The translations under genes and the position numbers were made by a program. DNA of 64,000 bases from Limosilactobacillus coleohominis 101-4-CHN (lineage in GTDB: Bacteria > Bacillota > Bacilli > Lactobacillales > Lactobacillaceae). The stretch lies in assembly GCF_000161935.1 (NCBI RefSeq), contig NZ_GG698803.1, positions 206,888 through 270,887 on the forward strand. The letters run 5' to 3'. Within the stretch, counting starts at the first letter, position 1; each line of letters begins with the position of its first letter. Below the pieces are notes generated by a model. That model did no database searches. It was not told the DNA's origin and saw only the letters and a list, made by a program, of their open reading frames with translations. Positions 34,593 through 44,380 of this stretch are shown in pieces.

Positions 34593-38905
<4,313 letters not shown>

Positions 38906-38909
38906 GCTC

Positions 38910-40016
38910 GTGAAAGTTAAAAAATTACTGATCACTGGGTCAGTATTGCTTGCAACGTTTATACTGGCTTCTTGTGGTAAAAGTTCTAGTAAGGGTAATT
39001 ACACGACCACTGGTTCATCAAGCGGTACGTATCAAGGTGTAATTAAGGGTGGCCGTTACCGAACTAGCAAGGCCCGGGGAGTCAATACCAGTCAAAACAA
39101 CAATCAATATAATTTGAAGAGTTTTGAAAATGGCCTTACAGAGGTTTCAAAACGGGTCTTCTCGACGAAAAACTATATTTTCCAAGAAGGCCAGTATTTA
39201 AGTTCAGATACGATTGAGAGCTGGCTTGGTCGGAAGTCTAGCAGTAATCCCAATGGTTTGAATCCTAAGCAAGGGAAAAAGAGTAACCCGAACCCTGAGT
39301 ATATTCAGCAAATTGAAGAACAGGATTACATGACCGAAAGTGGTAATTCCTTAAAGCTCAAGGGAATGACGATCGGAATTGGAATCAATAGTGAATATCG
39401 CTACCAAAAGAAGACGGATGGCCCATACTACACTAAGAAGATCTCCGATTCTGAAGTTGAACAGCAGGGTAAAATTGCGGCGGCCAAGATTTTAAAGCGG
39501 CTCCGCCAGAGGAAAGCTCTAAAGAATATTCCAATTGTAATTGCTCTTTATAAACAAGCCCCTGATGATAGTTTAGTTGGTGGGACGTTCTTTGCTTACA
39601 GCAATAACAAGGGGAAGACAGTATCTAGTTGGACCAAGTTGAATTATCGGAACGCTGTTTTGCCAAAGGCTAGTGCAGAAACTAGTGAAAATTCTGGTAG
39701 TTCAACTGACAACGACAGTTTCTCCAACTTTAAGAGTCAAGTACAGAATTTCTTCCCGAACTTGAGTGGTGTTACTGCGCAGGCTCAGTATCACAATGGT
39801 AATTTGTCCGGGATGCACATCACTATTACTACGCAGTTCTACAGTCAATCGGAAATTACCAGCTTTACGCAATACATTACCCGGGCCGCTAAACGCTACT
39901 TGCCACATGGGATTCCTATCGATATTAAGATTCAATCAGATTCCGAAATGCAGGCTGTGGTTTACCGGAATTCCGGCTCTGATAATTTCCAATCACATGT
40001 CTTTAACTCATATTAA
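38910..40016 (+). CDS. camS: CamS-family lipoprotein
   Basis: Exported lipoprotein of 368 residues. The signal peptide MKVKKLLITGSVLLATFILA ends in lipobox LASC with Cys22 as the lipid-bearing residue. The mature part starts with a Ser/Gly/Thr-rich linker and continues as the CamS fold (GNSLKLKGMTIGIGINSEY; PIVIALYKQAPDDSLVGGTF). In enterococci and staphylococci the signal peptide of CamS releases pheromone cAM373. The heptapeptide just before the cysteine here (residues 15-21, ATFILAS) is nearly identical. GTG start with AAGGAGGA. Biological role of the mature protein is unknown. Confidence 0.92.
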   Translation: MKVKKLLITGSVLLATFILASCGKSSSKGNYTTTGSSSGTYQGVIKGGRYRTSKARGVNTSQNNNQYNLKSFENGLTEVSKRVFSTKNYIFQEGQYLSSDTIESWLGRKSSSNPNGLNPKQGKKSNPNPEYIQQIEEQDYMTESGNSLKLKGMTIGIGINSEYRYQKKTDGPYYTKKISDSEVEQQGKIAAAKILKRLRQRKALKNIPIVIALYKQAPDDSLVGGTFFAYSNNKGKTVSSWTKLNYRNAVLPKASAETSENSGSSTDNDSFSNFKSQVQNFFPNLSGVTAQAQYHNGNLSGMHITITTQFYSQSEITSFTQYITRAAKRYLPHGIPIDIKIQSDSEMQAVVYRNSGSDNFQSHVFNSY

Positions 40017-40104: not shown

Positions 40105-40148
40105 AGTTTCGTGTAATATTTTTGAAGGAATGGAAAGAGGTTAAGAGA

Positions 40149-40460
40149 ATGGCTGAAAAAATCGATCGGCAAGAAGTAAAGCACGTCGCTGACCTCGCCA
40201 AATTATCATTTGATGATGCGGCATTAGATAAGATTACTCCGCAGTTGGAAGAAATTATCGATCTTTTTACTGACTTGCAAAAGGTTGATACGGACGGTGT
40301 TGAACCAATGTATACACCAACAACCGAACATAATGTAATGCGTGAAGACAAGGGAGTGCAGAGTGGTCAACGAGATGAACTGTTGGCAAATGCACCTGAA
40401 ACGCATGATGGCTTAATTAAGGTTCCAGCAATTATTGACGAAAGTGAGGATGGCGAATAA
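40149..40460 (+). CDS. gatC: Asp/Glu-tRNA amidotransferase subunit C
   Basis: Small subunit of the GatCAB amidotransferase that makes Gln-tRNA(Gln) and Asn-tRNA(Asn) from misacylated precursors; 103 residues. [14 protein letters not shown] start and the DGVEPMYTP loop are typical. ATG 40149 chosen over the upstream in-frame GTG/ATG region because of AAAGAGGTTAAGAG spacing and family length. Stop overlaps gatA ATG (TAATG). Confidence 0.95.
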
Positions 40461-41932
40461 TGAATTTTAATGAAACCAACATTACGGATCTTCACAATCA
40501 ATTAGTTAATGGTGAAGTGAGTGCCACAGAGTTAACTAAGGAATCTTTCAAGCAAATTAAAAACACCGAAGATGATGTTCAGGCATTTCTGACGTTGAAT
40601 GAAGAGGCGGCACTGAAACAAGCGGCTGCTTTAGATCAATCTGGTATTCAGGATGATCAAATTCTGGCGGGAATTCCGTTTGCAACCAAGGATATGATCA
40701 GCACTAAAGGACTTCGCACAACTGCTGCTTCCAAGATTTTGAAGGACTTTAAGCCTATCTACAACGCTACAGTGATTGAAAATCTAAACCATGCTGGTTC
40801 CATCAACGTTGGTAAGACGAACCTTGATGAATTTGCGATGGGTTCTTCAACAGAAAACTCTGGTTTTAAGCCAACTAAGAATCCATGGGATCTGACGCGG
40901 GTTCCTGGGGGCTCTTCTGGTGGTTCCGCAGCTGCAGTGGCTGCAGGAGATGTTTTAGCCGCATTAGGGACCGATACTGGTGGATCAATTCGGCAACCAG
41001 CTTCCTTTAATGGCATTGTCGGAATGAAGCCAACTTATGGTCGGGTTTCTCGGTGGGGAGTCATTGCCTTTGCTTCTAGTTTTGATCAAGTTGGTTGGTT
41101 AACTAAGAATGTTAAAGACAATGCTCTTTTGATGGAAGCAATCAGTGGTGTTGACCATCATGATATGACCTCTGCTAACCGACCGGTACCACACTGGGCA
41201 GCTAATTTGGATCAAGCAAGCGTAAAGGGCTTAAAGATCGCCGTTCCCGAAGAATACGTGAGCGATGCAATTGATGAAGATGTGCGTGAAGTAGTTCAGG
41301 CAGCACTGAAACATTATGAATCATTAGGGGCCACGATTGATACCGTCTCATTGCCACATACGAAGTACGGTGTTTCTGCATATTACATTTTGGCTTCCTC
41401 TGAAGCATCCTCAAACTTGCAGCGGTATGATGGAATTCGTTATGGCTTCCGTGCCGATGATTTTAAGAATCTGGAAGATGTATATGTACGAACCCGGACT
41501 GAGGGATTTGGTGAAGAAGTTAAGCGGCGGATTATGTTGGGAACGTTCTCCCTTTCTGCTGGTTTTTACGATGCTTACTTCAATAAAGCAGCTAAAGTAC
41601 GGCGTTTGATTGCGGATGACTTCAACAAGGTCTTTGAGGACTATGATGTCATTATGGGGGCAACGGATGCTTCGACTGCCTTTCCATTTGGCGATAAGAT
41701 TACCGATCCTACGAAGATGTACATGAATGATGTGTTAACCATTCCTGTCAACATGGCGGGATTACCAGCAATGTCATTGCCAGCTGGTTTCTCCAAGAAG
41801 GATGGTATGCCTGTTGGGCTGCAAATTATCGGGAAACCATTTGATGAACAAACGATTTACGATGCAGCATACGCATTTGAACAAACCACTGATTTTCACA
41901 AAAAGAATGCTAAGTTAGGGGGTCAAGACTAA
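40460..41932 (+). CDS. gatA: Asp/Glu-tRNA amidotransferase subunit A
   Basis: Amidase subunit producing ammonia from glutamine; 490 residues. Catalytic triad: Lys in ATKDMI, cis-Ser in [14 protein letters not shown], nucleophile Ser in [12 protein letters not shown]. Translationally coupled to gatC and followed 2 bases later by gatB. Confidence 0.97.
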
Positions 41933-41933
41933 G

Positions 41934-43358
41934 ATGAATTTTCAAACAACCATTGGTCTTGAAGTCCACGTTGAATTAAAGACTAACTCCAAAATTTATA
42001 GTCCTTCCCCAGTTCAATATGGGGTGGAACCAAACCTCAATACTAATGTGATTGACTGGGCCTATCCAGGAACCTTGCCAACCCTAAATAAAGGGGTTGT
42101 TAGAGATGGGATCATGGCAGGATTAGCATTGCACGCTAATATTACCAAGCACATGCACTTTGACCGGAAAAACTATTTCTATCCAGATAACCCAAAGGCT
42201 TACCAGGTTACTCAATCCGATACGCCGATTGCAACGGATGGTTGGGTTGAAATTGAAGTCAACGGCAAGAAAAAGAAGATCGGGATTGCCGAAATGCACA
42301 TTGAAGAAGATGCCGGAAAGAACACGCACACTGGGCAATATTCTTATGTCGACTTAAATCGGCAGGGAACGCCATTGATTGAAATTGTTTCTAAGCCGGA
42401 CATTGCTTCAGCAGATGAAGCAGTTGCTTATTTGGAAGCACTGCGTCAGCGAATTCAATTTACTGGGATCTCTGACGTGAAGATGGAAGAAGGGTCCATG
42501 CGGGTGGACACCAACATTTCTATCCGGCCATTTGGTTCTGATCAATTTGGTACTAAGACGGAAATGAAGAACATCAACTCCTTCAACTACGTTAAGAATG
42601 CGCTTGAATTTGAAGAGAAGCGGCACCAACAAGTTATCTTATCTGGTGGTACGATTGCCCAAGAAACCCGGCGGTATGATGAAGCCACTAAGGAAACCGT
42701 CTCAATGCGAAGCAAGGAAGGAAGCGAAGATTATCGCTACTTCCCTGAACCTGATATTCCACCATTGGACGTTTCCGATGAATGGATTAATGAGATTAAG
42801 GGTGAAATGCCAGAAATGCCAGGTGAACGGCGGAAACGTTACACTAATGATTTAGGGCTTTCTGACTATGACGCAATGGTCTTAACCCAAACTAAGGAAA
42901 TGTCTGACTTCTTCGACGAAGCGGTTAAGGATGGGGCAGATCCAAAGCGGGTTGCTAACTACTTGATGAATGACGTTAATAGCTATCTGAACGATGAACA
43001 AGTGGATCTTCAAGATACGAAGTTAACACCAGCTAACTTAGCGGGAATGGTTAAGTTAATTACGGATGGTACGATTTCATCGAAGATGGCTAAGAAGGTC
43101 TTTAAGGGAATTATTGCTGGTGAAGAACCTGCTGCCTATGCCAAGGCGCATGGTTTGGTTCAATTATCTGATCCTAAGGAATTGCAACCAATCATTGATG
43201 ATATTTTGGCAAATAACCAACAATCAATTGAAGACTTTAAGAATGGTAAGGATCGGGCAGTTGGCTACTTAGTCGGTCAAATTATGAAGCAGACCCGTGG
43301 TAAGGCAAACCCACAAGTGGTTAACCAACTGTTAATGAAGTCATTGAATGCACAATAA
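41934..43358 (+). CDS. gatB: Asp/Glu-tRNA amidotransferase subunit B
   Basis: Kinase/transamidase subunit that phosphorylates and amidates the mischarged residue; 474 residues. [13 protein letters not shown] start, [27 protein letters not shown], and a C-terminal tail-body tRNA-binding domain (YqeY-like). Directly after gatA; RBS inside its end. Confidence 0.97.
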
Positions 43359-43372
43359 TCAGGAGGTCAGCA

Positions 43373-44380
43373 ATGCGGAAACGAGCACGGATTATTTATA
43401 ACCCAGTCGCTGGTCGTGAAGCGATGCATGATGATCTGGCTGACATCCTGGCAATTTATGAACTGGCAGGGTATGAAACGAGTGCCTTTGCGACTACACC
43501 GGAACCAAATTCCGCCAAAAACGAAGCAGCGCGGGCGGCCCAAGAGGGCTTTGACCTAATCATTGCTGCGGGTGGTGACGGAACGTTGAATGAAGTAATC
43601 AATGGGATTGCCGGTTTAGATCAACGACCACGCCTAGCAATTATTCCTGCCGGAACCACGAATGACTATGCGCGGGCCCTGCACGTTCCACGAGAAGATC
43701 CAGTTGCCGCTGCTAAGCTAATTTTAAATCCCCAGAATCATTTTAAGATTGACTTGGGAAAAGCGGGCGATAACTACTTCATGAACATTGCGGCGGGTGG
43801 AACATTGACCGAATTAACTTACGATGTTTCCAGCCAAATGAAGTCTCTCTTCGGCTATCTAGCTTACTTTGCCAAAGGGGCTGAAATGCTACCCCAGGTA
43901 AAGCCGGTTAATATGAACATTAAATATGATGGTCATGAATTCGATGGGATGGCTTCGACGGTGTTCTTAGCGCTAACTAACTCAGTTGGTGGTTTTGAGC
44001 AAATCGTTCCAGACGCGGCCTTGGATGACGGAATGTTTTCCTTGATTATCGTGAAGGATAGCAATATGGTCGGCCTAATGCAATTGATGGCAAAGACCCT
44101 CAAGGGAACCCATATTGGTGATCCACGAGTAATTTATGTGAAGGCCAAGGATGTCGAAATTACACCGGTTGAACAAAATGAACGGTTGATGATTAACCTT
44201 GATGGTGAGTATGGTGGGGACGCACCAATGCACTTTCAAGCATTACGTCAGCACCTGGATATTGTTGCCGATGTTGATGCGATTCCTAATCAAGCCATTT
44301 CAACGTTGACGCCAGATATGAAAAAGGCGGAAGATGATTTTGTTCGCGGTGTCGATCAAATTAAACAGAACGATAAATAA
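43373..44380 (+). CDS. dagK: Diacylglycerol kinase, DgkB type
   Basis: Soluble lipid kinase that returns diacylglycerol from lipoteichoic acid synthesis to phosphatidic acid; 335 residues. Motifs: YNPVAGRE, AAGGDGTLNEVINGI (ATP-binding GGDGT), PAGTTNDYARAL, and C-terminal INLDGEYGG. RBS AGGAGG, 14 bases after gatB. The same gatB-dagK-rlmD neighbourhood is common in Bacilli. Closed by a terminator. Confidence 0.93.
   Translation: MRKRARIIYNPVAGREAMHDDLADILAIYELAGYETSAFATTPEPNSAKNEAARAAQEGFDLIIAAGGDGTLNEVINGIAGLDQRPRLAIIPAGTTNDYARALHVPREDPVAAAKLILNPQNHFKIDLGKAGDNYFMNIAAGGTLTELTYDVSSQMKSLFGYLAYFAKGAEMLPQVKPVNMNIKYDGHEFDGMASTVFLALTNSVGGFEQIVPDAALDDGMFSLIIVKDSNMVGLMQLMAKTLKGTHIGDPRVIYVKAKDVEITPVEQNERLMINLDGEYGGDAPMHFQALRQHLDIVADVDAIPNQAISTLTPDMKKAEDDFVRGVDQIKQNDK

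Follow-up and report, generated by a model that had tools for sequence, protein, structure and literature searches.

A cAM373-like heptapeptide in the CamS signal peptide of Limosilactobacillus coleohominis is probably a coincidental likeness

The camS gene of Limosilactobacillus coleohominis 101-4-CHN encodes, directly before the cysteine of its lipobox, the heptapeptide ATFILAS, which is a single residue away from the enterococcal conjugation pheromone cAM373, and the question it raises is whether this likeness marks a pheromone, inherited or in use, or an accident of a signal peptide. The known cAM373 peptides read AIFILAS in Enterococcus faecalis and AIFILAA in Staphylococcus aureus (PMC7157817, in part; a review also gives AIFILAS), and an earlier note on this DNA had quoted both correctly. 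It had also derived the enterococcal peptide from CamS, which is wrong: two papers place it in camE, a gene of 501 bp (PMC5231353, PMC6209644), and an enterococcal CamS was therefore rejected as its source. Of the two peptides, only the staphylococcal one stems from CamS. In a review, the two precursors are said to be without homology, and the likeness of the two peptides is postulated to be coincidental (PMC7117660). A third peptide with reported activity, SVFILAA, comes from the lipoprotein CamG of Streptococcus gordonii (PMC5462765, in part, citing Vickerman 2010). That lactobacilli have CamS orthologues, with the pheromone meaning unknown, is already in print (PMC6284299, in part), and ATFILAS itself was not found in a search of the literature that covered open PubMed Central papers.

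The window, by which we mean the whole 64,000-nucleotide stretch of DNA analysed, belongs to a genome of 1.73 Mb (12 contigs, 99.97% complete) with a single CamS match. The features that the argument needs are the following.

34593..36878, + strand: pcrA-like helicase, upstream neighbour (UvrD-helicase and PcrA_UvrD_tudor domains)
36881..38905, + strand: ligA, NAD-dependent DNA ligase, directly upstream of camS (DNA_ligase_aden and others)
38891..38897, + strand: AAGGAGG, Shine-Dalgarno-like sequence of camS within the end of ligA (by reading; identical in the sister species)
38910..40016, + strand: camS, CamS-family lipoprotein of 368 aa with a GTG start (ORF reading, PF07537)
38910..38972, + strand: signal peptide, residues 1-21, with n-region MKVKK, hydrophobic region and lipobox (direct reading)
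38952..38972, + strand: ATFILAS, residues 15-21, cAM373-like heptapeptide (reading and comparison)
38964..38975, + strand: lipobox L19-A20-S21-C22 (direct reading; Lsp gene in the genome)
40122..40460, + strand: gatC ORF (PF02686), called mechanically from a TTG that probably lies ahead of the true start
40460..41932, + strand: gatA (Amidase)
41934..43358, + strand: gatB (GatB_N, GatB_Yqey)
43373..44380, + strand: diacylglycerol-kinase-like gene, dgkB-like (DAGK_cat, YegS_C)

The setting of camS, between pcrA and ligA on one side and gatCAB on the other, is a housekeeping cluster, and the 30 bases upstream of its start are identical in the nearest relative. The ORF matches the Pfam CamS family (PF07537) over profile positions 1-315 of 316 with 408.3 bits (E 2.9e-122, cut-off 25); an NCBIfam search of the protein assigned no family. 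Lipoboxes follow the motif [LVI][AST][GAS]C, and the N-terminus, MKVKKLLITGSVLLATFILASC, reads as a typical lipoprotein signal peptide, with a charged n-region, a hydrophobic region and a conforming lipobox (MKVKK...LASC), on which Lsp cleavage and Lgt lipidation are predicted. The codon of Cys22 (38973-38975) follows ATFILAS immediately. The central observations of the earlier note, a CamS protein with this heptapeptide at residues 15-21 before Cys22 and its one-residue difference from AIFILAS, are thus borne out on reading the sequence.

A pheromone that matters to its bearer could be expected to be kept among close relatives, and the comparison of CamS proteins bears directly on this. CamS was present in all 50 Limosilactobacillus genomes, in all 151 sampled genomes of the family, in 81 of 118 of the order and in 103 of 200 of the class. 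Within the genus, 49 of the 50 genomes had one match; the remaining one, G008, has two pieces of a single split gene, and its CamS, divided over two frames (L080, G008:C2:22249-23176), represents a frameshift or an assembly error. The orthologues compared in the genus are 63-97% identical to the window CamS and have a lipobox, and their heptapeptides differ from ATFILAS, e.g., ATLVLAS, ATIVLAS, STIVLAS and CTVLLAS, with 25 kinds among the 50 genomes and a different one even in the sister species. At its closest to AIFILAS or AIFILAA, the window lies at one residue, and the other genus rows at three (4 rows), four (42) or five (3); the window alone has F-I-L at positions 3-5. By column, counted back from the cysteine (n = 50), L stands at -3 in 50 rows, A at -2 in 46, T at -6 in 30, F at -5 in three and I at -4 in one. 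Freedom is therefore limited in some columns: L at -3, which is invariant, and A at -2 are kept as lipoboxes favour, and T is commonest at -6, which is position 2 of the heptapeptide, so that the one residue in which the window departs from cAM373 is the usual residue of its genus.

The wider comparison drew on 276 CamS ORFs, which gave 267 heptapeptides after nine were dropped, eight without a lipobox cysteine and one (L235, LLMAGC) that failed the filter. A pool of 187 rows was made from 50 of the genus, 61 of 70 of the family, 47 of the order and 29 of the class, the last three sets being the best-scoring CamS loci plus chosen ones, with the family represented mainly by one per genus; genome G016 contributes two rows (L067, L212), and two genomes of the order set (G016, G062) are Lactobacillaceae. 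Eighty named loci and 20 further class rows were counted apart. In the pool, the window alone comes as near as one residue to AIFILAS, AIFILAA or SVFILAA, 12 rows stand at two, and none of the 186 other heptapeptides has F-I-L at positions 3-5. None of the 80 named loci, which overlap with the genus rows, comes within two residues of AIFILAS or AIFILAA. Among the 20 further class rows, one is within one residue of AIFILAA: the AIFILSA of a Staphylococcus-like genome (G469, L346), which, with its kin, we infer from the sequences to be staphylococci. Other CamS proteins of its family or genus read AIFVLSA, AILVLTA, AVVMLSA, LSLVLSA and more, so the heptapeptide is not generally kept even around the staphylococcal case; the Staphylococcus-like signals at L343-L345, L348-L352 and L312 are two to six residues from the staphylococcal cAM373.

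Eight of the 70 Lactobacillaceae family loci (L246, L251, L254, L255, L256, L257, L258, L259) encode a CamS that lacks the lipobox cysteine and is apparently anchored by a hydrophobic helix at its N-terminus. Such a CamS should be no lipoprotein, nor yield a lipoprotein-type pheromone. The protein thus persists where the peptide route should not operate, which argues that it is the protein that is kept and not the heptapeptide, in agreement with the finding in S. aureus that the protein moiety of CamS has a function distinct from that of the peptide (PMC10769083).

The nearest sequences indicate how the resemblance may have arisen. The closest CamS, at 97% identity, is that of the metagenome-assembled 'Candidatus Limosilactobacillus excrementigallinarum', with the heptapeptide ATLVLAS, and in a maximum-likelihood tree of 52 rows, built from the CamS sequence that follows the heptapeptide, the two form a pair with support of 99/99. 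The genes differ at 76 bases (window versus L081), with 62 synonymous and 10 non-synonymous codons; a further copy of the sister gene (G009, L014) has the same first 600 bases as L081. Codons 17-18 are TTT ATA in the window and TTA GTA in the sister, with F-I and L-V set apart by two neighbouring bases, and two next relatives that were compared have I-V there (ATC GTG, ATT GTA). Isoleucine at residue 18 is thus probably derived in the window lineage, and the ancestral state at residue 17 is ambiguous, the sister having L and the next relatives I. Three of the 22 signal-peptide codons carry non-synonymous changes from the sister, against seven of 346 elsewhere (Fisher p = 0.017), and all three residue changes are conservative (K/R, F/L, I/V). 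By this comparison the signal peptide appears as a loosely constrained part of CamS.

How surprising a near match should be was estimated per CamS under a model that treats the alignment columns as independent. A heptapeptide that differs from AIFILAS or AIFILAA by at most one residue is expected at a rate of 4.4e-4 from the 61 family rows and 8.5e-4 from the 186 pooled rows without the window, and the genus rows by themselves put the rate at 0, or at 7e-6 with pseudocounts; with SVFILAA added as a target, the rates (with pseudocounts) are 1.9e-4, 4.2e-3 and 3.2e-3 for genus, family and pool. For a single protein such a match is uncommon, yet many lipoproteins and peptides were open to matching. 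One genome has tens of lipoproteins, and several pheromones are known that a peptide might match. In the order, A-x-F-I-[LF]-A-[AS]-C was matched at nine places in nine of 395 genomes (reversed control 0), and in the class at 13 places in 12 of 398 genomes (reversed control 13, by our count), the window included in both. Besides the window, three of the nine places (L321, L322, L323) and three of the 13 (L330, L338, L339, the last two alike) are lipoprotein-like, and by eye none of the six is a CamS. Their signal peptides end in AVFILAA, ALFILAA or AVFILAS, themselves chance cAM373-like candidates, and such peptides thus arise occasionally in other genes. In the genome of the window, the shorter pattern F-I-[LF]-A-[AS]-C is confined to a single place, in camS; as a DNA pattern it matched 62 of 301 family genomes, at 70 places against about 25 in the reversed control (our count). 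Thirty of the 70 places, on both strands, were read and yielded none that looked like a lipoprotein precursor, most being short ORFs; among them, L176 is a 20-residue ORF that ends in AAFILASCTA and has no charged start.

For a peptide to matter outside the cell it must be released. In S. aureus, cAM373 activity in supernatants requires camS, lgt, lspA, eep and ecsAB, a requirement that mass spectrometry bore out for eep and ecsAB (PMC7157817, in part). The genome of the window encodes an RseP/Eep protein (224 bits; HEFGH and LDGG can be read in it, and the adjoining genes read as cdsA-like and proS-like), which answers the earlier note's call for an Eep-like protease to be looked for, as well as EcsB (304 bits, with an ABC ATPase gene adjoining by reading) and Lsp (140 bits). 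With these genes encoded, it is plausible, by analogy, that some peptide would be released from the CamS signal. The five quantified S. aureus peptides (ALLLLVAA, ALSLFLAA, GSLLILSA, GLVILLSA, AIFILAA) start with A or G, which would be compatible with a cut before A15 in the window CamS. Against a simple transfer of this route, and unlike the S. aureus case, Eep is named in a review (PMC7117660) as a processing step that pAM373 does not share.

Whether pAM373-type plasmids would respond turns on position 2 of the heptapeptide. It is I or V in the active natural peptides (AIFILAS, AIFILAA, SVFILAA) and T in ATFILAS. Threonine and valine are near-isosteric, threonine being more polar than isoleucine or valine. 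Active peptides vary at position 2 and ATFILAS retains the F-I-L-A core, so that enterococcal plasmids may recognise the predicted peptide. S. aureus mutants with F13A,I14V and L15V have inactive peptides, according to the section of PMC10769083 concerned, so that positions 3-5 of cAM373 matter, and these are the positions at which ATFILAS is unaltered. A review's table gives 50 pM for cAM373, by microtiter dilution assay. By analogy with the known peptides, we would rate the chance that ATFILAS is active on pAM373-type plasmids at roughly one in three.

On the receiving side, the query was a pAM373 protein of 337 aa that its record calls hypothetical; it was taken as TraA from its size, its place beside a substrate-binding gene and its matches to annotated TraA and PrgX. 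At E <= 0.001 it had no match in the genome of the window, i.e., no TraA/PrgX-type receptor by that threshold. In the genus it gave weak matches of 18-24 bits, in the N-terminal part, at 16 places in 14 of 50 genomes, which are possibly Rgg-type regulators; eight of the 16 (L313-L320) are mostly located in open reading frames some 280-300 aa long. A TraA-like gene was found at E <= 1e-5 in 415 plasmid records, 413 of them from Enterococcus and two from Carnobacterium. Nothing in these searches suggests that the window lactobacillus listens via a TraA-type receptor.

Taken together, the heptapeptide is unconserved while the CamS protein is kept, and the likeness to cAM373 is best read as a coincidence in a drifting hydrophobic segment, not as an inherited or selected pheromone; to the reading as coincidence we give a probability of about 85%. 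The signal peptide would be that of a CamS lipoprotein which is in itself ordinary and was inherited vertically; cleavage along the Sec/Lgt/Lsp route would fall before Cys22 and leave a remnant embedded in the membrane, which RseP/Eep would probably cut and EcsAB probably export as a short hydrophobic peptide, both steps being carried over to this species from S. aureus. Selection would maintain the CamS protein and, ahead of it, a hydrophobic stretch that closes with a lipobox, but not the heptapeptide, and adjacent base differences in one lineage would have put F-I in place of L-V or I-V, one residue from cAM373. Counted against coincidence are the rarity of such a match for one protein, the columns that are not free to vary, and the excess of A-x-F-I-[LF]-A-[AS]-C over its reversed control in the order, though not in the class. 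The match also sits in the very family of the S. aureus pheromone precursor, which is a further coincidence to accept. Activity gained recently and in this lineage alone would be indistinguishable from drift, since a single assembly of the species was analysed. That family membership, with the AIFILSA of G469, could also speak for a cAM373-like sequence that was ancestral in CamS and retained in both the window and S. aureus. Such an ancestral pheromone was rejected, and is the least probable of the readings, since F-I-L is present in none of the 186 other pooled heptapeptides and one of the 20 further class rows; other Staphylococcus-like CamS proteins depart from it, and the chain of intermediate lineages that it would need is lacking among the CamS rows read. 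An error in the assembly at codons 17-18 would account for both differences from the sister being in adjacent bases and is very improbable, as the assembly, in 12 contigs, has a completeness of 99.97%, and with 62 synonymous and 10 non-synonymous codons differing, two together are unremarkable.

The remaining readings concern use. That the heptapeptide is a genuine pheromone sensed by the lactobacillus or its plasmids, the 'own variant' that the earlier note had entertained, would draw on the peptide-release genes and on the RRNPPA-type regulators known in Lactobacillales (PMC9765709, in part); it was rejected as an own signalling system, and we hold it highly unlikely, since the heptapeptide varies through the genus and changes between sisters, no TraA match was found in the genome, with weak ones in 14 of 50 congeners, and TraA-like plasmid genes lie so largely in Enterococcus. 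An accidental but active mimic, i.e., a peptide that is released and answered by pAM373-type plasmids with no selection in the lactobacillus, has considerably more in its favour: the F-I-L-A core common to AIFILAS, AIFILAA, SVFILAA and ATFILAS, a sole difference from AIFILAS at the position where S. gordonii has V, a residue much like T in shape, the processing genes, the fit of the cut before A15, and the tabulated 50 pM. It has to contend with the polarity of T, with the inactive S. aureus mutants, though these are at positions 3-5, and with a route that may differ if Eep is unshared for pAM373, and we regard it as unlikely overall. It is compatible with the coincidence explanation, which concerns origin and not activity. 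That this Limosilactobacillus, a gut lactobacillus, would thereby supply a further natural mimic, after S. aureus and S. gordonii, by releasing ATFILAS to responding enterococcal plasmids is likewise doubtful.

Either outcome would be of use. If the peptide is active, plasmid transfer by enterococci could be set off by a commensal lactobacillus, position 2 of cAM373 would be permissive, with a receptor that accepts a polar residue there, and drifting lipoprotein signal peptides would generate pheromone mimics by chance. If it is inactive, ATFILAS would offer an inexpensive natural variant with which to map the specificity of the receptor. In either case, 'CamS sex pheromone cAM373 precursor', as Pfam names the family, claims too much for most of the members seen, in which the heptapeptide is not conserved and the lipobox is in some Lactobacillaceae absent.

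Set beside the known systems, ATFILAS is identical to no peptide of shown activity, with one mismatch to AIFILAS, two to AIFILAA and three to SVFILAA, and it has at positions 3-6 the F-I-L-A core of all three. The nearest in kind is the S. aureus system, likened here by description, in which CamS shares with the window the PF07537 family name, the place of the peptide before the lipobox cysteine and the F-I-L-A core, with RseP/Eep and EcsAB common to S. aureus and the genome of the window; its AIFILAA has I where ATFILAS has T at position 2, and A for S at position 7, and its release and activity have been shown (PMC7157817, in part), whereas the window peptide is a predicted one. The nearest in letters is the E. 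faecalis peptide AIFILAS, identical at six of seven positions and likewise directly before a lipobox cysteine. Its precursor CamE, the product of the 501-bp gene, is said in a review to be non-homologous to the staphylococcal one (PMC7117660), so that the likeness of cAM373 to the window CamS peptide would be convergent. The S. gordonii SVFILAA differs at positions 1, 2 and 7 and comes from a lipoprotein of another name, CamG, and it too has the F-I-L-A core in common with ATFILAS.
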